Assembly: GCA_014237145.1 (NCBI GenBank)
Contig: JAAXOC010000002.1
Span: forward strand, 1 to 57,744
Direction of reading: 5' to 3'
DNA: 57,744 nt
Source of the DNA: ANME-2 cluster archaeon
GTDB lineage: Archaea; Halobacteriota; Methanosarcinia; Methanosarcinales; Methanocomedenaceae
Positions 37,312 through 46,920 of the stretch are shown here, in pieces; position 1 is the stretch's first letter, and the number at the start of each line of letters is the position of its first letter. The position numbers and the translations under genes are program-made. The notes beneath the pieces were generated by a model. That model had not been told where the DNA came from and did no database searches. It worked only from the letters and a program-made list of their open reading frames with translations.

Positions 37312-38883
37312 ATGTCAAAAACAAACGGAAATGGTGAGAAAGAAAAATCCATGGAAAGCTGGATCTGGGGTGCAGCTTGCAGTATTAGAGGTGCGGCTGA
37401 TGCAGCTAAATTTAAAGAATACATTTTACCATTAATATTTGTAAAACGGCTGTGTGATGTGTTTGATGATGAGATCGATCGCATTGCAGAAAAAGTAAAA
37501 CGCAGAACCAAAGCCCTGCAATTGGTGGAACGTGATAAAAAATTGGTGCGTTTTTATCTGCCAATAAAGCCCAAAGACCCCGAAGAAGAAAGAACATGGG
37601 ATGTTATTAGAACGCTGTCTGATAAAATTGGAGAGAAACTCACCAATATTCTTCGTGATATAGCCAAAGAGAACAAAGACCTGCAGGGAATCATTGACCG
37701 TGTTGATTTTAATGCAACCACACACGGGCAGCGTGATATTGATGATGACCGTTTAAGCAAACTGATTGAAAAGATTACCGAGAAGCATTTGGGATTGAAA
37801 GATGTGGAGCCTGATATTATCGGGCGCAGTTATGAATACCTGATACGCAAGTTTGCCGAGGGCAGCGGAAAAAGTGCCGGAGAGTTCTACACACCTACCG
37901 AAGTGGGCTTTATCATGGCAAAGATAATGGATGCCGAGTCTGGCATGGAAATTTATGATCCCTGCTGCGGCAGCGGCGGTTTACTCATTAAATGCGAACT
38001 GGTGATGGAAGAAAAAATGGCTTTAAGCTCCAGAGAGAAATATGCACCACTTCAACTGCACGGACAGGAGTTTACGCCTGGCACCTGGGCTATGAGCAAA
38101 ATGAACATGGTGATACACGACATGGAGGGCGAAATTGAAATTGGCGACACATTGAAAAATCCCAAGTTCAAAGACGGTGGCAAACTGAAGACGTTTGACC
38201 GTGTGGTTGCAAATCCCATGTGGAACCAGAGCAAAGACAGCTTACCTTATATCAATGACGATTTTTTTATCAATGATGAATTGGAACGCTTCCCGGCAGG
38301 CCCTTGCGGGGGCAAGATTGACTGGGGCTGGATTCAGCATATTTACAGCAGCTTGAATGATGCAGGTAGGGGAGCCGTGGTACTGGATACGGGAGCCGCC
38401 AGCCGCGGCAGTGGAAATAAGGGGGGCAACAAAGAAAAAGAGTGCCGCAAATGGTTTGTTGAAAATGACCTGATCGAAGGTGTGATCTACCTGCCTGAAA
38501 ATTTGTTTTACAATACCTCTGCACCGGGAATTATTATTTTCCTTAACAAAGCCAAGCAGCACACAGACAAGATTTACCTGTTGCATGCCGGTAAAGAGTT
38601 TGAAAAGGGTGATCCGAAGAACTACATCACACAGGAAGGTATAGAACGCATTGCTGAAACCTATAAAGGTTTTAAAGAAGAAGTAAAATTTTCCCGTCTG
38701 GTTGAGAAGGATGAGATTGTAAAAAATGATTATAATATTTCTCCCAGCCGGTACATTCAGGTTAATGATGCCTACATCTACCGCCCCATTGAAGAGATTG
38801 TGGATGAACTTAGGGAACAGGAGAGTGAATATACTATTATTGATGCTGAAGTGAAAAACATTTTAGATAAATTGGGTGTATGA
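37312..38883 (+). CDS. hsdM: Type I restriction-modification DNA methyltransferase (HsdM)
   Basis: A 523-aa N6-adenine methyltransferase. The helical N-terminal domain covers residues 12-170. The SAM motif DPCCGSGG is at 216-223, and the catalytic motif IV reads NPMW at 301-304, a variant common in this HsdM subgroup. The C-terminus (YIQVNDAYIYRP on) is typical. HsdM works as M2S with HsdS, and as R2M2S with HsdR cuts unmodified DNA. Composition is more AT-rich than the core. The last 40 codons are repeated in part behind the gene by a tandem duplication. Confidence 0.95.
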   Translation: MSKTNGNGEKEKSMESWIWGAACSIRGAADAAKFKEYILPLIFVKRLCDVFDDEIDRIAEKVKRRTKALQLVERDKKLVRFYLPIKPKDPEEERTWDVIRTLSDKIGEKLTNILRDIAKENKDLQGIIDRVDFNATTHGQRDIDDDRLSKLIEKITEKHLGLKDVEPDIIGRSYEYLIRKFAEGSGKSAGEFYTPTEVGFIMAKIMDAESGMEIYDPCCGSGGLLIKCELVMEEKMALSSREKYAPLQLHGQEFTPGTWAMSKMNMVIHDMEGEIEIGDTLKNPKFKDGGKLKTFDRVVANPMWNQSKDSLPYINDDFFINDELERFPAGPCGGKIDWGWIQHIYSSLNDAGRGAVVLDTGAASRGSGNKGGNKEKECRKWFVENDLIEGVIYLPENLFYNTSAPGIIIFLNKAKQHTDKIYLLHAGKEFEKGDPKNYITQEGIERIAETYKGFKEEVKFSRLVEKDEIVKNDYNISPSRYIQVNDAYIYRPIEEIVDELREQESEYTIIDAEVKNILDKLGV

Positions 38884-39119
38884 TGGAAGGTTGTAGAATA
38901 TAGTGGAGTATTCGGTAAAAAATTATTGAATCTTTGATATGAGAATTGTGATTATGGACCATCGAGAAATGGAACCGCAGATAAACGCAGATGAACGCAG
39001 ATTGAATGTTATGTCTGAGGGAATTATAGGGGTAGCATTTGAAGTTAGCAATGTTCTTGGTGCAGGTTTTCTGGAGAAGGTCTATGAAAATGCCTTGAAT
39101 GTTGAGCTTAATTTGAGAG
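38846..39119 (+). repeat. Tandem duplication, unit 1 (hsdM tail plus GxxExxY start)
   Basis: Bases 38846-39119 align with 39120-39400 (ATTGATGCTGAAGTGAAAAA at the start of each). The unit covers the last 13 codons of hsdM, the following gap and the first part of the GxxExxY gene. Units differ at scattered sites, so the duplication is not brand new. Confidence 0.85.
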
Positions 39120-39124
39120 ATTGA
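38939..39124 (+). pseudogene. GxxExxY protein, truncated by tandem duplication
   Basis: The frame encodes the N-terminal 60 residues of a GxxExxY protein (GVAFEVSNVLGAGFLEKVYE with the GFLEKVY signature) and is cut where the second duplication unit starts. The nuclease-like core present in the next copy (EIIIEVKAV) is missing, so it is probably not functional. Confidence 0.8.
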
Positions 39125-39219
39125 TGCTGAAGTGAAAAATATTTTACAAAAATTTGGTGTATGATGGATGGTTGTAGAATATAGCAAAGTACTTGATAAA
39201 AATTTATTGAATCATTGAT

Positions 39220-39645
39220 ATGGCAGTTGATATTATGGAATATAGAAAAATGGAACCGCAGATAAACGCAGATGAACGCAGATTGAATGCTATGTCGGAG
39301 GAGATTATAGGGGCGGCATTTGAAGTTAGCAATGTTCTTGGTGCGGGTTTTCTGGAGAAGGTTTATGAAAATGCCTTGAATCTTGAACTTAATTTTAGGG
39401 GAATAAAAACACTTCAACAGGCGCCATTAAAGGTATTTTATAAGGAAGAATTGGTAGGAGACTACATAGCAGATATTTTAGTTGAAAATGAAATCATAAT
39501 TGAAGTTAAGGCTGTAAAGGAAATCGATACAGTACATTTAGCCCAATGCATGAACTATCTAAGAATAACAGGGCTGAAACTTTGCCTTTTGTTAAATTTC
39601 AGTAAACCAAGGGTAGAGATTAAAAGGGTTGTGAATGGCATTTAA
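39220..39645 (+). CDS. GxxExxY protein (PD-(D/E)XK-like)
   Basis: A 141-aa protein named for its GFLEKVYENAL motif near residue 48. The central part has GDYIADILVENEIIIEVKAV, a D...ExK pattern of the PD-(D/E)XK nuclease fold, so a nuclease or a degenerate relative is likely. The N-terminus carries the repetitive EPQINADERRLN peptide, which recurs in many members of this family and is encoded by a DNA repeat also found outside genes nearby. It sits between hsdM and hsdS. The job in the R-M island, if any, is unknown. Confidence 0.8.
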   Translation: MAVDIMEYRKMEPQINADERRLNAMSEEIIGAAFEVSNVLGAGFLEKVYENALNLELNFRGIKTLQQAPLKVFYKEELVGDYIADILVENEIIIEVKAVKEIDTVHLAQCMNYLRITGLKLCLLLNFSKPRVEIKRVVNGI

Positions 39646-39798
39646 ATTTGTGGTGACTGATGAGTGTAAATAGAAATCAATCAAAAATAATCCCAAAACC
39701 ACTGTATTTACAATGGATTAATCCAGTGCAACAAATCTGCGTTCATCTGCGTTTATCTGCGGTTAATATTTTCTTGATTATTATTTAGTTGGGGTAGG
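39646..39798. repeat. Intergenic region with inverted copy of the GxxExxY coding repeat
   Basis: CTGCGTTCATCTGCG followed by TTTATCTGCGGTTAA at about 39737-39766 is the reverse complement of the N-terminal GxxExxY coding repeat. No gene is seen. Confidence 0.6.
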
Positions 39799-41088
39799 AT
39801 GACAGAGTGGATAAGAATTGAATTAGAAAAAGTATGTTCAAAAGTGGGTAGCAATTATCAACCAAAAGAATCGAGTAATCTACCTTATGTTGGCCTTGAG
39901 CATATTGAATCTGAAAAATCAATGTTGACAAATCATGGATTTGAAAGTGAGATAAAAAGTTCTAAAACAATGTTCAAAAAAGGTCAAATTCTTTATGGAA
40001 AACTTCGACCATATTTGGATAAAGCTGTTATTGCCCCTTTCGATGGCATTTGTTCAACTGACATTCTCGTCTTTGATAGTAATACTGAATCTATGAATGA
40101 ATTTCTGATTCATTTAATACATAGCCAAGAGTTTATAGATTATGCCAAAGCCACCACTAACGGTGTTCAACATCCAAGAACTTCATGGAATTCTCTAAGA
40201 CAATTTGATTTTTTACTCCCTCCTCTCCCCGAACAGCGCAAAATCGCCCACGTATTAAGCAAGGTGCAAAAAGCTATCGAGCAGCAGGACAAGCTCATCC
40301 GCACCACCACCGAGCTGAAAAAAGCTCTCATGCAGAAACTCTTTACTGAAGGCACCAGAGGCGAACCCCAGAGAGAAAGCGAAATCGGTTTAGTACCGGA
40401 GAGTTGGAAGGTAAAACTGTTTTCAGAAATTTTTAAAATTATTAAAACCCAATCTCATTCCAGAAATAAATTAACCTATGAAAAAACAGATACTAAGATT
40501 TTAAATATTCACTATGGTGATATTCATGCTAAATTTAAAGACAACATCGTTGATTTAGAATTAGAAGAAGTTCTTTATATAATTGATGAGTATGTTGATG
40601 AAAACAAAAATAACCTTTTGAGAGATGGAGATATCGTAATTGCTGATGCAAGTGAAGATTTAATTGATATTGGAAAGTGTATTGAATTAAAAAATGTAAA
40701 AAATAAAAAAATTATTGGTGGGTTACACACCATAGTCGCGAGAGATAAAAATAACTTGATTCAAAAAGGGTTCGGAGCATATATTTTTAAGAATAAATAT
40801 GTTTCTACTGAAATAAGGTTAATTGCAACTGGTATTTCTGTTTATGGAATTTCAAAAGGAAATTTACTCAAAATGTTAATACCAATTCCGCCAGCACAAG
40901 AACAAGTTGAAATTGCAGAAACAATGGATAGATGCAATAAAAAAATCTTTTATCACCAAAAGAAAAAACAAACCCTCACCGACTTATTTAAAACCCTGCT
41001 GCACGAGCTGATGACCGGGCAGCGCAGGGTGCATGATCTGGATTTTGATGGGATAATGAAGGAATATAATACAAATAAGAGGTGTTAG
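39799..41088 (+). CDS. hsdS: Type I restriction-modification specificity subunit (HsdS)
   Basis: A 429-aa protein with two target-recognition domains, each ended by a conserved coiled-coil. TRD1 covers residues 1-135 and is closed by LPPLPEQRKIAHVLSKVQ at about 140. TRD2 covers about 200-360, followed by IPPAQEQVEIAETMDRC near 366 and the final HELMTGQRRV. HsdS chooses the bipartite target of the complex. The spacer helices look intact. The next gene starts 4 bp after the stop. Confidence 0.95.
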   Translation: MTEWIRIELEKVCSKVGSNYQPKESSNLPYVGLEHIESEKSMLTNHGFESEIKSSKTMFKKGQILYGKLRPYLDKAVIAPFDGICSTDILVFDSNTESMNEFLIHLIHSQEFIDYAKATTNGVQHPRTSWNSLRQFDFLLPPLPEQRKIAHVLSKVQKAIEQQDKLIRTTTELKKALMQKLFTEGTRGEPQRESEIGLVPESWKVKLFSEIFKIIKTQSHSRNKLTYEKTDTKILNIHYGDIHAKFKDNIVDLELEEVLYIIDEYVDENKNNLLRDGDIVIADASEDLIDIGKCIELKNVKNKKIIGGLHTIVARDKNNLIQKGFGAYIFKNKYVSTEIRLIATGISVYGISKGNLLKMLIPIPPAQEQVEIAETMDRCNKKIFYHQKKKQTLTDLFKTLLHELMTGQRRVHDLDFDGIMKEYNTNKRC

Positions 41089-41092
41089 GATA

Positions 41093-43672
41093 TTGAACAG
41101 CATAAATCATATTGAATTATATGAACATTTAAAAAAATTCCACAATTTGACGGATAAATTGAATTTTATTCAACAAAATAACATCAAACCCTCTTATAAA
41201 CTATTATTTGATTTTTATGAGAATCAAAGTCAACAATTGACTGTATTTTTTAAAGCAGAATACTATAAATTATTAAAAGATGTCATACTTATCAATAAAC
41301 CTAAAACTATGCTTGATCCTTTCTGTGGGTTGGGCACTTTGTTGTTTCATCTTCCAAAAGAAATTACATTACATGGTCTTAATGTAAATAAATCTGAAGC
41401 TAAAACTGCACATTATTTTAATCCAAATGCTAAAATCGAATGTAAGGATGCGTTTAATGAGACCTTCAATACTACTTATGATTGCATTGCTTCAATCTTG
41501 ATTCCATTTGGTCAAAAACATAATAATTTAAGCAAATTAACTTTGAAACTTCTCAATAGCTTGAATGATAACGGAAGTTTATTTCTAACGGTTCCTTCTA
41601 ATTTTCTAAGTGCAACAGCTTTTCATAATATTAGAAAATCAATCTTGAAGGAATATAGTCTTGAATTTATTGCTGAATTACCAAGAAATAGATTTCAAGG
41701 AATAAAATTTAATTTAATACATATAAAAAACCAAAAACAACGCAGCAATGTATTACTTACTATAATAGATGATTACGATAAAAATCAAATAATAAGTGAT
41801 TATGTTAACCAAAAAGGTCAATTTTGGATTCCACAGAATCAACTAATTCACCGCTGGGATAGAAACTTCCATGATCCAAAATATTTAGAGATTGAAAATG
41901 AGTTAAATAAACAAGATACAAAGCCACTTGATGAAATATCGGAAGAAATTCGATTTGGGATTCATATTCCTGCGGAATACAGAAAAGATAAAGGTGATTA
42001 CTTAGTACTTACCCCCGGTAATATTAAATCGAATTCATTGATTATTAGTGAGCGCCAATATTATTGTAATGCAGAGGATAATAAGAACATACGGAATTTT
42101 AATCGGGTAATTCTTAAACCTGACGACATACTTCTTTCTTTATTTGGTCAAACGTTTAAATTATACATATACAATGAAAACGATCCTAAAGCAGTTGCAA
42201 ACCAAAATTTTGCTATTATTAGAGCATGTGATAATAAATATATTAAAGCATACCTTGAAAGTGAAACAGGATATAATGCATTTCTACAACAAGCCCAAAG
42301 AAGAAGTAGTGGAACGACTATTCAAAAGCTAACATTATCTGATTTACGAAAAATTAAAGTTCCCATTTTACCATATGAACAGCTTAACGATCTAATTCCA
42401 GAACCGGATAAATTAACATCCTTTTCTGAATCTAAAATTGCCTTAGTTCTGGAAGAAAAACTCAAAGAAAAGGGATGGTCAATTAAAAGGGAATATAGAG
42501 TAAATAATATAATCATAGATTTAGCTTTATGTATTGAAGATAAGCCTATTGGGCTGGTGGAAATAAAACAATATAAATCAGATCTTGATATAAGCCAAAT
42601 AGAAAATCAACTAAAGCATTTAATTAATACGACTGGCTTTGAACTTGCATTCACATATTTTAATAATCAATTATTTGAATATAATGGAATTGAATTTATT
42701 CCAATTGAAGATTTTCCTTCAATAAATAAGGAATTAAAAAACAGATTTGAAGTTCAAGAATCTGTATCTATTTATCAAAGTCAGCCTTCGAGTTATGCTA
42801 CAAAATTTATGTTAGAGATTATTGGTTTACAAATTCAAAAAATGAGTTCAGACATTAAGGCAATTAAAGAGACAACTAACAGGACGGAAGAAAAAATAGA
42901 TTTAATTATTGATTTGGTTTCAGATTTAAATGAAGAGTTTAGAAATATAAAAAGCGAACCATTTGAAATAGAAGAAAAACTTATTTTATTTAATAAAGAA
43001 CTTGATGAAAAAATAAGAGAATTGCAAAATCAAAAACAGGATCAATTAGATAAGTATATAGAGATAGTAAAATCTTGGTTAAGCTATGATTGGGAAAGAT
43101 TAGACGAATTAAGTAAACAATATTTACCTTCAGCGGAATTTATTTTTTCACAATTATCAAATCTTACTAATACCGATTTTTCTCCTTTTATCATACAATA
43201 TTGCAGGGCTTTAGAGACTGAATTATTAAATAAGGTCTTTAAGGCATATATAGATGAACTCAAGGCAAAAAACACTAACATAGAAGATAAATTTGCATGG
43301 GATTTCGAAAAGAAAGAAAATGGTAAACACAATAATGAAAATACATTTAAATTAGCCAAACATATACAAAAATGCTTAGATATAGACAGATCTGAATGGT
43401 TCTTTGAATTGGGAACCATGGAAGTCAATTTACGCTATTTAACAGGAAAAACTTCCAGAAAAAGCCCAATACTTGCTGATTTAAAGAAGTTCTTGCTTAC
43501 TTACTTTGAAGAAAACATTCTTGAATTAGAATTTTTAAATGAATTAAATCGCATTACTAAAGAATATAGAAACCGAGCAGCTCATTCCAATATAATAACT
43601 TTACATGAAGCAAAAAAAGGAAGAACAGAAATCAAAGAATTATTAAAGCAATTCTTTGAGTTTTATAAATAG
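41093..43672 (+). CDS. Multidomain protein: degenerate methyltransferase, TRD-like, PD-(D/E)XK, coiled coil, HEPN-like
   Basis: An 859-aa protein between hsdS and hsdR. Residues 50-215 resemble an N6-adenine methyltransferase with SAM motif DPFCGLG at 75-81, but motif IV reads LIPF (136-139) in place of NPPF, so catalysis is doubtful. Residues 270-430 resemble an HsdS recognition domain (LDEISEEIRFG, ILLSLFG, KLTLSDLRKIKVPILPYEQ). Residues 445-545 show a PD-(D/E)XK pattern (Asp476 in IIIDLAL; Glu490-x-Lys492 in GLVEIKQY). Residues 575-660 form a coiled coil. The rest is helical and ends with YRNRAAH (Arg826, His831), an R-x4-H motif of HEPN RNases. It is flanked by gaps of 4 and 3 bp, so it belongs to the operon. 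I know no described protein with this order. HEPN and nuclease calls are by motif only. Confidence 0.6.
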   Translation: MNSINHIELYEHLKKFHNLTDKLNFIQQNNIKPSYKLLFDFYENQSQQLTVFFKAEYYKLLKDVILINKPKTMLDPFCGLGTLLFHLPKEITLHGLNVNKSEAKTAHYFNPNAKIECKDAFNETFNTTYDCIASILIPFGQKHNNLSKLTLKLLNSLNDNGSLFLTVPSNFLSATAFHNIRKSILKEYSLEFIAELPRNRFQGIKFNLIHIKNQKQRSNVLLTIIDDYDKNQIISDYVNQKGQFWIPQNQLIHRWDRNFHDPKYLEIENELNKQDTKPLDEISEEIRFGIHIPAEYRKDKGDYLVLTPGNIKSNSLIISERQYYCNAEDNKNIRNFNRVILKPDDILLSLFGQTFKLYIYNENDPKAVANQNFAIIRACDNKYIKAYLESETGYNAFLQQAQRRSSGTTIQKLTLSDLRKIKVPILPYEQLNDLIPEPDKLTSFSESKIALVLEEKLKEKGWSIKREYRVNNIIIDLALCIEDKPIGLVEIKQYKSDLDISQIENQLKHLINTTGFELAFTYFNNQLFEYNGIEFIPIEDFPSINKELKNRFEVQESVSIYQSQPSSYATKFMLEIIGLQIQKMSSDIKAIKETTNRTEEKIDLIIDLVSDLNEEFRNIKSEPFEIEEKLILFNKELDEKIRELQNQKQDQLDKYIEIVKSWLSYDWERLDELSKQYLPSAEFIFSQLSNLTNTDFSPFIIQYCRALETELLNKVFKAYIDELKAKNTNIEDKFAWDFEKKENGKHNNENTFKLAKHIQKCLDIDRSEWFFELGTMEVNLRYLTGKTSRKSPILADLKKFLLTYFEENILELEFLNELNRITKEYRNRAAHSNIITLHEAKKGRTEIKELLKQFFEFYK

Positions 43673-43675
43673 ATT

Positions 43676-46600
43676 ATGACAATACCAACTGAACATAAAA
43701 GCGTACAATCCCGCATACTAAAATATGCAAAGGAAATCGGCTGGGCAGTGGTTTCACAAAGCGAAGCCGAGCTGTGCAGAGGCTTTGATCCATCCGGCGC
43801 TTCACCCAGAGAAAGAGCCAAGCATGCTTCCCGGTTTTTCACTGATACCTTATTTGAAAAAGTAAAACAATTCAATCCAAAATTCAAAGACAGCAAAGAA
43901 GAACTCCTTCGCAAACTCGATCTGCCGTTACCCACCATTGCAGGCAACCGGGATTTTTTACAACACCTTCAAGGTGAAAAAACTTTTTTCAGCAAAGAAG
44001 AAAACCGTGAGTTTAACCTTATTCTGATAAACTATGACAAGCCAGACAAAAACATCTATGAAGTAACTGAAGAATATTATCTCTTCAACGGACAATATGC
44101 CAACCGGGAAGATGTGGTTTTTCTCATTAATGGCATTCCGGTTCTGGTTATTGAATGTAAGAACGCCACCAAAGACGAAGCGATTGCCATCGGCATAGAC
44201 CAGATCAGACGGTATCACCGCGAGACCCCTGAGTTTTTCGTTCCCCAGCAGATCTACACAGCAACAGAGAGTATTGGTTTTTCATATGGCGTGACCTGGA
44301 ATACCATCAAAAGAAATATTTTCAACTGGAAAGAAGAGGAAATCGGCAATCTGGAAGCAAAAATAAAATCGTTTTGCGATAAGCAGAACATACTTGATTA
44401 CCTAAAAAAGTTCATAATTTTTGCCGAGCAGAACGAAGAGTTAAACAAATACATCTTACGCCAGCACCAGAAAACAGCCGTTGAAAAAGTGGTGGAACGG
44501 GCAATTGACCCGGACAAGACAAGGGGTTTAGTGTGGCATACTCAGGGAAGCGGCAAAACCTACACCATGATAAAAACAGCCGAGTTGTTGTTTAAAGCTC
44601 CAGAAGCAGAAAAGCCTACTATTCTTTTATTGATTGACCGCAATGAGCTGGAAGACCAGATGCTCAAAAACCTCGATTCGGTCGGTGCAAAAAATGTGGT
44701 ACAGGCAGAGCGTATCAAAGACTTGCAAAAAATACTGAAAAACGATTACAGAGGAATAATCGTCAGCACGTTACATAAATTCAGGGATATGCCTGCTGAA
44801 GTTAATACTCGTAAAAATATTTATGTCTTGATTGATGAAGCCCACCGTACCACAGGAAGCGATTTGGGTAATTATCTGATGGCTGCTGTCCCCAATGCCA
44901 CCTTCATAGGTTTTACAGGTACACCCATTGACAAAACAGTTTACGGTAGAGGAACATTCAAAACCTTTGGTATAGAAGATAAATCAGGTTATCTGCATAA
45001 ATATTCCATTGCAGAAAGTATTGAAGACGGTACAACCTTACCCCTCTTTTACGGTGTGGCTCCAAACGAGCTATTAGTACCAAAAGAAATTTTAGAAAAA
45101 GAATTTCTCAACCTGGCGGAAGCTTATGGAGTAAATGACATTGAGGAATTGAATAAAATTCTGGAACGTGCTGTAAATACCCGTAACTTTTTGAAAGGAC
45201 AGGAACGAGTAGAAAAGGTAGCTGAATATGTAGCAAAGCATTACACAGAAAATGTGGAGCCAATGGGCTATAAGGCATTCTTAGTTGGGGTTGACCGTCC
45301 GGCATGTGCCATGTATAAAAAAGCGTTAGATAAATTCCTGCCACCTGAATATTCAGAAGTAGTCTATACAGGAAATAACAATGATACACCAGATTTAAAG
45401 AAATATCACATTGACAAGAAAAAGGAAAAGGAAATCCGAAAGAAGTTCACCAAAATAGAAGAACAACCGAAAATCCTGATCGTTACTGAAAAACTGTTAA
45501 CTGGATTTGATGCGCCAATTTTATACGCCATGTATCTGGATAAACCCATGCGTGACCATACTCTTCTTCAAGCCATTGCAAGGGTAAACAGACCATATGA
45601 GAACGAAGAAAAGGACATGATAAAGCCCCATGGCTTTGTCTTGGACTTTGTAGGCATATTTGAAAATCTTGAAAAAGCCCTTGCATTTGACAGCGACGAA
45701 ATAAATGCGATAGTAAAGGATATTCAATTGCTGAAACATTTATTCAAGGCAAACATGGAAGAAAAGGTTCCTCCATACTTGCAACTATTAAAATATGGGT
45801 TTAACGACAAAGACACTGATAATCTCATTGCATACTTCAGGGATAAATCCAAACGAAAAGAATTTTTCAAATTATACAAAGAGGTGGAAATGCTATACGA
45901 GATCATTTCACCTGACAAATTCCTGAGACCTTACATTGATGATTATGCTACACTTTCTGCCATTTATAAAATTGTAAGAAATGCTTACACAAAAAGAATA
46001 CAGGTTGACAGGGAATTTCAAAGAAAAACCAATGAGCTGATCCAAGAAAAAATTGGCATGGAAAATTTGCAGCAAACCTATGAATTCTTTGAGATCAATG
46101 AAGATACAATTCAAAAAATAAAAGAAAACCAAAGCAATTACAATACACGGGTAATCAACCTGGTTAAGAGTATTGAAAAAATTGCAGAGGATAATTCCGA
46201 TGATCCATTTTTAATTGGTTTGCTGGAAAGAGCCGCACAGGTAGAAGAACACTATGAAGACAGACAAATCAGCACACAGGAAGCATTAGAAGAAATTAAA
46301 AAGATTTGTGAAGATGACATACAAAGGAAAAAGGAACAGGCAGAAAAAGGATTTGATGGCTTAACATTCTTCATTTACCGTACACTTCTTGACAAAGATA
46401 TCAAAAATGCAGATGAAATAACCAGGCAGATTAAAGCAGAGTTTATGAATAATCCGAATTGGAAAACAAGCGAAAAGGAATTGAGAGATTTAAGAAAAGG
46501 AGCAACTTTTGCAGTACTTAACGAAGAAGAGGATATTGACAAAGCTGCCGTCATTGTAGAAGAATTATTTTATCACCTATTCAAAGCCTACGATCTATGA
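43676..46600 (+). CDS. hsdR: Type I restriction-modification endonuclease and translocase (HsdR)
   Basis: A 974-aa protein. The N-terminal nuclease has Asp146 in the EDVVFL strand and Glu160-x-Lys162 (VIECKNA). The SF2 motor follows, with Walker A HTQGSGKT at 289-296, DEAH at 387-390, GFTGTP and the LLQAIARVNRPY motif VI. The C-terminal region is helical and binds the M-S core. Length is normal for the family. It starts 3 bp after the multidomain gene. Its TGA overlaps the ATG of the YgjP gene. Confidence 0.95.
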   Translation: MTIPTEHKSVQSRILKYAKEIGWAVVSQSEAELCRGFDPSGASPRERAKHASRFFTDTLFEKVKQFNPKFKDSKEELLRKLDLPLPTIAGNRDFLQHLQGEKTFFSKEENREFNLILINYDKPDKNIYEVTEEYYLFNGQYANREDVVFLINGIPVLVIECKNATKDEAIAIGIDQIRRYHRETPEFFVPQQIYTATESIGFSYGVTWNTIKRNIFNWKEEEIGNLEAKIKSFCDKQNILDYLKKFIIFAEQNEELNKYILRQHQKTAVEKVVERAIDPDKTRGLVWHTQGSGKTYTMIKTAELLFKAPEAEKPTILLLIDRNELEDQMLKNLDSVGAKNVVQAERIKDLQKILKNDYRGIIVSTLHKFRDMPAEVNTRKNIYVLIDEAHRTTGSDLGNYLMAAVPNATFIGFTGTPIDKTVYGRGTFKTFGIEDKSGYLHKYSIAESIEDGTTLPLFYGVAPNELLVPKEILEKEFLNLAEAYGVNDIEELNKILERAVNTRNFLKGQERVEKVAEYVAKHYTENVEPMGYKAFLVGVDRPACAMYKKALDKFLPPEYSEVVYTGNNNDTPDLKKYHIDKKKEKEIRKKFTKIEEQPKILIVTEKLLTGFDAPILYAMYLDKPMRDHTLLQAIARVNRPYENEEKDMIKPHGFVLDFVGIFENLEKALAFDSDEINAIVKDIQLLKHLFKANMEEKVPPYLQLLKYGFNDKDTDNLIAYFRDKSKRKEFFKLYKEVEMLYEIISPDKFLRPYIDDYATLSAIYKIVRNAYTKRIQVDREFQRKTNELIQEKIGMENLQQTYEFFEINEDTIQKIKENQSNYNTRVINLVKSIEKIAEDNSDDPFLIGLLERAAQVEEHYEDRQISTQEALEEIKKICEDDIQRKKEQAEKGFDGLTFFIYRTLLDKDIKNADEITRQIKAEFMNNPNWKTSEKELRDLRKGATFAVLNEEEDIDKAAVIVEELFYHLFKAYDL

Positions 46601-46920
46601 TTATGAAATGGAACGATAAATCAGAATTCAAGGCAAGAGTAAGAGAGTTTGCCGGGAAAATGGACATTGAAATAAAGGCACTTGCCATTCGACCTATGAA
46701 AAACAAATGGGCTTCATGTTCGACAGATTGTAATTTAAATTTCAATAAAGAACTGCTTGAGCTGGACAAAGAGATTGGCGAATATGTAATTGTGCATGAA
46801 CTGTTACATTTTAATATTCCCAACCATGGCAAACTTTGGAAAAGCCTAATGAGTGCTTACCTGGGCGACTATAAGAACATGGAAGAGAAATTGAATAAAA
46901 TAACAAATGGGGATAAATAG
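46597..46920 (+). CDS. YgjP/DUF45-like zinc metallopeptidase
   Basis: A 107-aa protein with HELLHFNIPNHGKLW at about 68-82, the zinc site of the YgjP/SprT-like group (HExxH with a further His). It also has the RPMKNKWASC segment typical of the family. It is shorter than stand-alone YgjP proteins (about 230 aa) because most of the N-terminal half is lacking. YgjP genes commonly follow hsdR. The start overlaps the hsdR stop as ATGA; an ATG at 46603 is the alternative. Its role in the R-M system is not known. Confidence 0.85.
   Translation: MIMKWNDKSEFKARVREFAGKMDIEIKALAIRPMKNKWASCSTDCNLNFNKELLELDKEIGEYVIVHELLHFNIPNHGKLWKSLMSAYLGDYKNMEEKLNKITNGDK

Follow-up and report, generated by a model that had tools for sequence, protein, structure and literature searches.

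PrrC, encoded in the EcoprrI type IC locus, is a HEPN RNase that lies within a type I hsd operon and acts as a second-line effector, kept silent by the type IC enzyme linked to it and released by the phage protein Stp (PMC3710099). At least 16 clades of HEPN domains are linked to restriction-modification (R-M) systems, and a 2013 survey described them as joined to REases, helicases and ATPases “but not to the methylases” (PMC3710099). Here, we describe a protein, X, encoded in a type I R-M operon of an ANME-2 cluster archaeon, in a window of 57,744 nucleotides (the whole stretch of DNA analyzed). Its location is that of PrrC. PrrC senses via an ABC NTPase, whereas X instead carries a degenerate methyltransferase domain and a target recognition domain (TRD), together with a PD-(D/E)XK nuclease domain. 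The N-terminal ABC/SbcC-like NTPase of PrrC and RloC is missing, as the preliminary description of this DNA had proposed: no NTPase profile occurs among the Pfam, NCBIfam and PADLOC matches of X.

Another well-described protein with comparable parts is DndH of the DndFGH system, in which a TRD, an inactive methyltransferase and an REase form a triad (PMC10853773). Unlike X, DndH averages 1700 residues, is found in dnd loci and arranges its domains in a different order. It contains a HerA/FtsK ATPase and two TRDs, and its core as described lacks a HEPN domain. HsdM-HsdS fusions and the type IIG and BREX PglX enzymes share with X a methyltransferase followed by a TRD in a single chain. However, the methyltransferase-TRD proteins that we compared (L050, L052 and G423) keep the catalytic NPPF motif, which X has lost while gaining effector domains. 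Identity with type IIG or BREX PglX enzymes was rejected: the PglX match covers only 73 residues (3.6e-5), no type IIG model was among the matches listed, and NCBIfam gave no full-length match of this kind. The MADS system, with its MAD2 methyltransferase and MAD5 specificity subunit, is also similar, in that the PADLOC model mads_2 is among the best matches of the X N-terminus (1e-12). Unlike MAD2, X is not matched by the NCBIfam MAD2 equivalog model and is predicted to be inactive, and no other MADS-specific genes were identified among the operon proteins scanned.

The R-M-linked HEPN families DUF4145, Abi_2/Swt1, RiboL-PSP-HEPN and MAE_28990 resemble the C-terminus of X in having an Rx4H motif at a helix end, and HEPN models of this kind weakly match members across its C-terminal family. 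Unlike in these families, the HEPN-like domain of X is fused to a (pseudo)methylase and a TRD, which, if true, runs counter to the 2013 survey (PMC3710099). We found no description in the open-access literature searched of a pseudo-methyltransferase/TRD protein with a HEPN or TIR domain. R-M-linked HEPN effectors (PrrC) and the triad of TRD, inactive methyltransferase and REase (DndH) are thus already known; what appears to be new, judging from a few example sequences, is a pseudo-methyltransferase/TRD protein with a HEPN-like end.

The type I operon and its embedded gene

The genes hsdM, hsdS and hsdR form a complete type I R-M set, with X placed between hsdS and hsdR (Table 1). The preliminary description had X packed between these two genes and co-expressed with them. 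Both points hold: the open reading frame was recovered as given, the gaps are only 4 bp (41089-41092) on the hsdS side and 3 bp on the hsdR side, and the operon is complete. Just before the hsdS stop, at 41079-41084 and 8 nt upstream of the TTG start of X, is a GAGGTG ribosome-binding motif. The G+C content of X is 27.8%, compared with 42% for the window, 43% for hsdM, 34% for hsdS and 38% for hsdR, which suggests a separate origin for the gene.

Table 1. Features of the type I operon and of protein X, with positions in the window.
Feature	Position	Strand	Basis
hsdM	37312..38883	+	N6_Mtase 2e-87, HsdM_N 6e-23; catalytic motif IV is NPMW
hsdS	39799..41088	+	Methylase_S 1.3e-19, two stretches
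X, 859-aa pseudo-methyltransferase / TRD / PD-(D/E)XK / helical linker / HEPN-like protein	41093..43672	+	Intact ORF, TTG start
Degenerate N6-adenine methyltransferase domain (residues 31-222)	41183..41758	+	N6_Mtase, PADLOC mads_2, alignment with HsdMs and relatives
HsdS-type target recognition domain (residues 276-434)	41918..42394	+	Methylase_S, PADLOC Specificity_I, BLAST to relatives
HsdR-type PD-(D/E)XK nuclease domain (residues 446-537; D476, E490, K492)	42428..42703	+	HSDR_N, NucS_C, MTES_1575
Long helical linker, putative coiled coil (residues 567-664)	42791..43084	+	Helix prediction only
C-terminal helical HEPN-like domain (residues 665-859)	43085..43669	+	RNxxAH family, weak HEPN Pfam matches, AF2 model
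RNRAAH motif (R826-H831), predicted RNase active site	43568..43585	+	Conservation in C-terminal family
hsdR (HSDR_N nuclease and SWI2/SNF2 motor)	43676..46600	+	TIGR00348 1e-143, HSDR_N 2e-24

Domain composition of the protein

A Pfam scan of the whole of X yielded no match above cut-off, yet its separate segments do match, and none of the models in Pfam, NCBIfam, PADLOC and PHROGs spans its full length. For the layout that the preliminary description raised as possibly new, the libraries searched thus hold no described full-length family. A sequence search of the PDB with full-length X returned methyltransferase- and specificity-type matches, and nothing credible for the PD-(D/E)XK segment or the C-terminus. 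The full-length AF2 model, built from three sequences, had a pLDDT of 38 and was discarded.

The N-terminal segment matches N6_Mtase at 2e-5 (24.6 bits against a curated cut-off of 20.4). Alignment with HsdMs and relatives shows that motif I (DPFCGLG) is retained and that motif IV reads SILIPFG, without the catalytic Asn. The signature of active N6-adenine methyltransferases, [DNS]PP[FYW], is absent from X, which has LIPF (L136-I137-P138-F139), and from its near-full-length homologue, from Anaerolineales, which has GLPF. The methyltransferase-like fold with LIPF in place of NPPF that had been read from the letters therefore stands, and on this alignment the domain is catalytically dead. Motif IV is lost in three R-M-embedded proteins, namely X, the Anaerolineales homologue (TGLPFG) and G048 from a related archaeon (SMESFG), and is intact (NPPF) in the orphan protein G423. 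The Anaerolineales homologue has lost motif I as well (DIHCRVGQ).

The HsdS-like recognition region proposed for X is borne out by Methylase_S (1.1e-6, 29.4 bits against a cut-off of 22) and by PADLOC Specificity_I (7e-13). Residues 9-446 of X match the Anaerolineales homologue at 9e-56, and the TRD matches that of a TIR protein from Chloroflexota (G622) at 2e-18. On a two-sequence model, the G622 TRD scores 106 bits, whereas other HsdS proteins and M-S fusions reach ~20-46. BLAST of the X TRD against the HsdS of its own operon found no match. The idea that X recognizes DNA itself is not supported as stated: the TRD is unlike the local HsdS, but it is conserved among effectors of different operons, so that a fixed ligand, whether DNA or a protein surface, would suit it as well as a private DNA target. 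This conservation speaks mildly against X reading the DNA target of the local HsdS.

Between the TRD and the linker, a segment matches HSDR_N at 5e-5, with 23.7 bits, 1.4 below the curated cut-off of 25.1, and two further nuclease models, NucS_C (0.0013) and MTES_1575 (0.028). The profile match is in register with Asp476, Glu490 and Lys492, the residues already picked out as a PD-(D/E)XK pattern, and the D476-x13-E490-x-K492 spacing equals the D146-x13-E-x-K spacing of the operon's own HsdR. All residue positions named earlier, including R826 and H831, proved correct. The bare D-x9-16-E-x-K pattern was rejected as evidence because it occurs in 94% of shuffles of this K/E-rich protein. In the alignment, the PD-(D/E)XK insert is absent from the Anaerolineales homologue, and the nuclease is thus optional; the earlier suggestion of two effector activities does not extend to the family. 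The linker is conserved in that homologue. Its reading as a coiled coil agrees with the helices predicted for this segment of X, which come solely from a very low-confidence model.

The C-terminal domain belongs to a family of 23 domains, drawn from X, its homologue, archaeal TPR proteins and McrC-like PD-(D/E)XK proteins from Chloroflexota. The RNxxAH motif is kept in 21 of the 22 complete members, the sole exception being L090, and appears in only 0.24% of shuffles of X. A bare Rx4-6H pattern was rejected as evidence, since 83% of the shuffles contain one. Sixteen Pfam models weakly match some member of the family, and six of these are HEPN or HEPN-like: DUF4145 (three members), RiboL-PSP-HEPN (0.001), Swt1 HEPN, Abi_2, MAE_28990 and Csx1 HEPN. 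HEPN models make up a small share of Pfam's 24,736. An AF2 model of residues 657-859 is all helical, with RNRAAH at a helix end before the last helix (pLDDT 67.5). A Foldseek search with this model returned no match at E ≤ 0.001 in the PDB and none usable among viral structures. With hhalign, the family scored 22.8 against an alignment of MAE_28990 HEPN domains, and 40 shuffles of the columns gave no more than 17.9; the match spans only 22 aligned columns and its support is weak. The domain is thus likely a HEPN domain by its sequence; of the HEPN-like end proposed earlier, the motif conservation and the enrichment of HEPN models stand, and the fold search did not confirm it.

The same domain is carried by TPR proteins without R-M genes nearby (L016 and L083), and it is therefore not tied to R-M everywhere. 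Five McrC-like proteins from Chloroflexota (L056, L067, L069, L070 and L074) end in an RNxxAH domain, the first of them with a weak PDDEXK_7 match, indicating that the pairing of PD-(D/E)XK and HEPN recurs outside type I operons.

Relatives and their gene neighborhoods

Relatives were sought in ~2000 genome scans over several searches, with some genomes repeated, and 84,980 species genomes were also covered by two pattern scans. The first pattern scan of genome contigs, with X alone, found none, and no full-length homologue occurs in the viral contigs, plasmids and phages searched. The only near-full-length relative is the Anaerolineales homologue (L015:3142-5406), which is ~33% identical to X and longer than 755 aa; its contig ends ahead of the RNxxAH position. 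It combines a degenerate methyltransferase, a TRD, the linker and the C-terminal domain, and is encoded two genes behind hsdS. A 151-aa gene with weak DUF4365/PDDEXK_5 matches lies in between.

The one TIR-type relative found, G622 (L078:9497-10612), is 371 aa long and consists of a TRD, a coiled coil and a TIR domain (TIR_2, 6e-25). Its gene follows hsdS by 3 bp, in a type I operon that also includes hsdR, an NB-ARC-TPR gene and hsdM. Both relatives thus lie behind hsdS, which fits an R-M-linked effector. The NB-ARC-TPR gene (L078:3553-6507), between hsdR and hsdM, is a second defense-type module in the G622 operon.

G048 (L079:7867-9516), a degenerate methyltransferase-TRD protein, is encoded in a type I operon whose order is that of the window, and is more distant from X (E 8e-10). 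A gene for a 260-aa protein of no known family (L079:9509-10291) overlaps the G048 gene and possibly encodes an effector acting in trans. Besides its intact N6-methyltransferase, the orphan G423 (L080:674-2587) has a TRD-like region, and its helical C-terminus contains RNETIGH. Pfam gave no match to this last part; G423 is possibly another methyltransferase-HEPN fusion.

A possible R-M-coupled effector and its alternatives

We hold, with about as much belief as doubt, that X is an R-M-coupled, PrrC-like abortive-infection or defense effector that works without an NTPase. The degenerate HsdM-like domain and the HsdS-like TRD would serve as a sensor or docking platform, the N-terminal half mimicking an M/S half-complex and binding to the type I complex itself or to the DNA on which that complex acts. 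Expression from the hsd operon would keep the level of X matched to the R-M enzyme and, by analogy with PrrC, the intact R-M complex probably holds X silent. The trigger, the RNA target and the toxicity of X we infer as follows: once a phage anti-restriction protein blocks the R-M complex, or the complex is stuck on DNA beyond clearing, released X would cleave RNA (perhaps tRNA) and DNA and halt the infected cell. The HEPN-like domain with RNxxAH would be the toxic effector, an RNase, and the HsdR-type PD-(D/E)XK domain inserted in X a second nuclease.

An unlikely alternative is that X is a second restriction enzyme, methylation- or sequence-dependent in a type IIG-like or DndH-like manner, with the degenerate methyltransferase and TRD recognizing DNA, the PD-(D/E)XK domain cutting it and the C-terminus only dimerizing or binding nucleic acid. 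The HSDR_N match in X is in keeping with such an enzyme, as is the precedent of DndH, whose triad has been likened to the type IIG enzyme BpuSI (PMC10853773). However, the sole near-full-length homologue shares the C-terminal domain and has no PD-(D/E)XK domain, the TIR protein has a TRD of the clade seen in X and no nuclease, and RNxxAH conservation at the level found here would be unusual for a mere dimerization domain.

Less probable again is direct activation by DNA, in which X would sense its own target via the TRD and fire on unmodified invading DNA, the R-M complex being unneeded. Sequence-reading TRDs usually diversify fast, whereas that of X has been kept in both an archaeon and Chloroflexota, across different operons; the loss of motif I in the Anaerolineales homologue means that SAM or methylation sensing is no family trait. 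In favor of this reading, the TRD of X is complete and no copy of the local HsdS TRDs, and X retains a motif I through which it could bind SAM. We see only a slim chance that X is an independent toxin-like hitchhiker with no working R-M link, as its low G+C relative to the hsd genes and its few relatives might suggest, because such genes are found behind hsdS in three different operons (the window, L015 and G622) and X is itself assembled from M- and S-like parts.

TIR, HEPN and PD-(D/E)XK domains are recurrent effectors of prokaryotic immunity. Behind related platforms we find PD-(D/E)XK with HEPN (X), a HEPN-like domain alone (L015) and TIR (G622). The loss of the catalytic Asn beside a working hsdM, the conservation of the TRD across operons and the exchange of effectors together fit a sensor or dock that stays fixed while its effectors change. 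More tentatively, and with doubt somewhat outweighing belief, we propose a modular class of type I R-M guards, in which a degenerate methyltransferase and/or a conserved TRD would act as the fixed sensor and a swappable effector (HEPN with or without PD-(D/E)XK, or TIR) would complete a suicide switch without an NTPase. Its examples are few, namely one near-full-length relative and one TIR relative. If true, R-M systems can make a death switch of their own from recycled HsdM and HsdS parts, with interchangeable TIR and HEPN effectors, a modularity resembling that of other modular immune systems, and the question raised by PrrC, how restriction failure is sensed, becomes testable without an NTPase.

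The hsd block of the window holds further genes and repeats. The last 4 bp of hsdR are shared with a YgjP-like metallopeptidase gene (46597-46920), and a GxxExxY-type PD-(D/E)XK gene lies at 39220-39645. Between hsdM and the latter gene is a 279-nt tandem duplication (38839-39398, 88% identical), and a 46-nt inverted repeat of CGCAGAT units (39239-39284 / 39734-39779) brackets the GxxExxY gene, whose predicted N-terminus (EPQINADERR) is probably repeat rather than protein.
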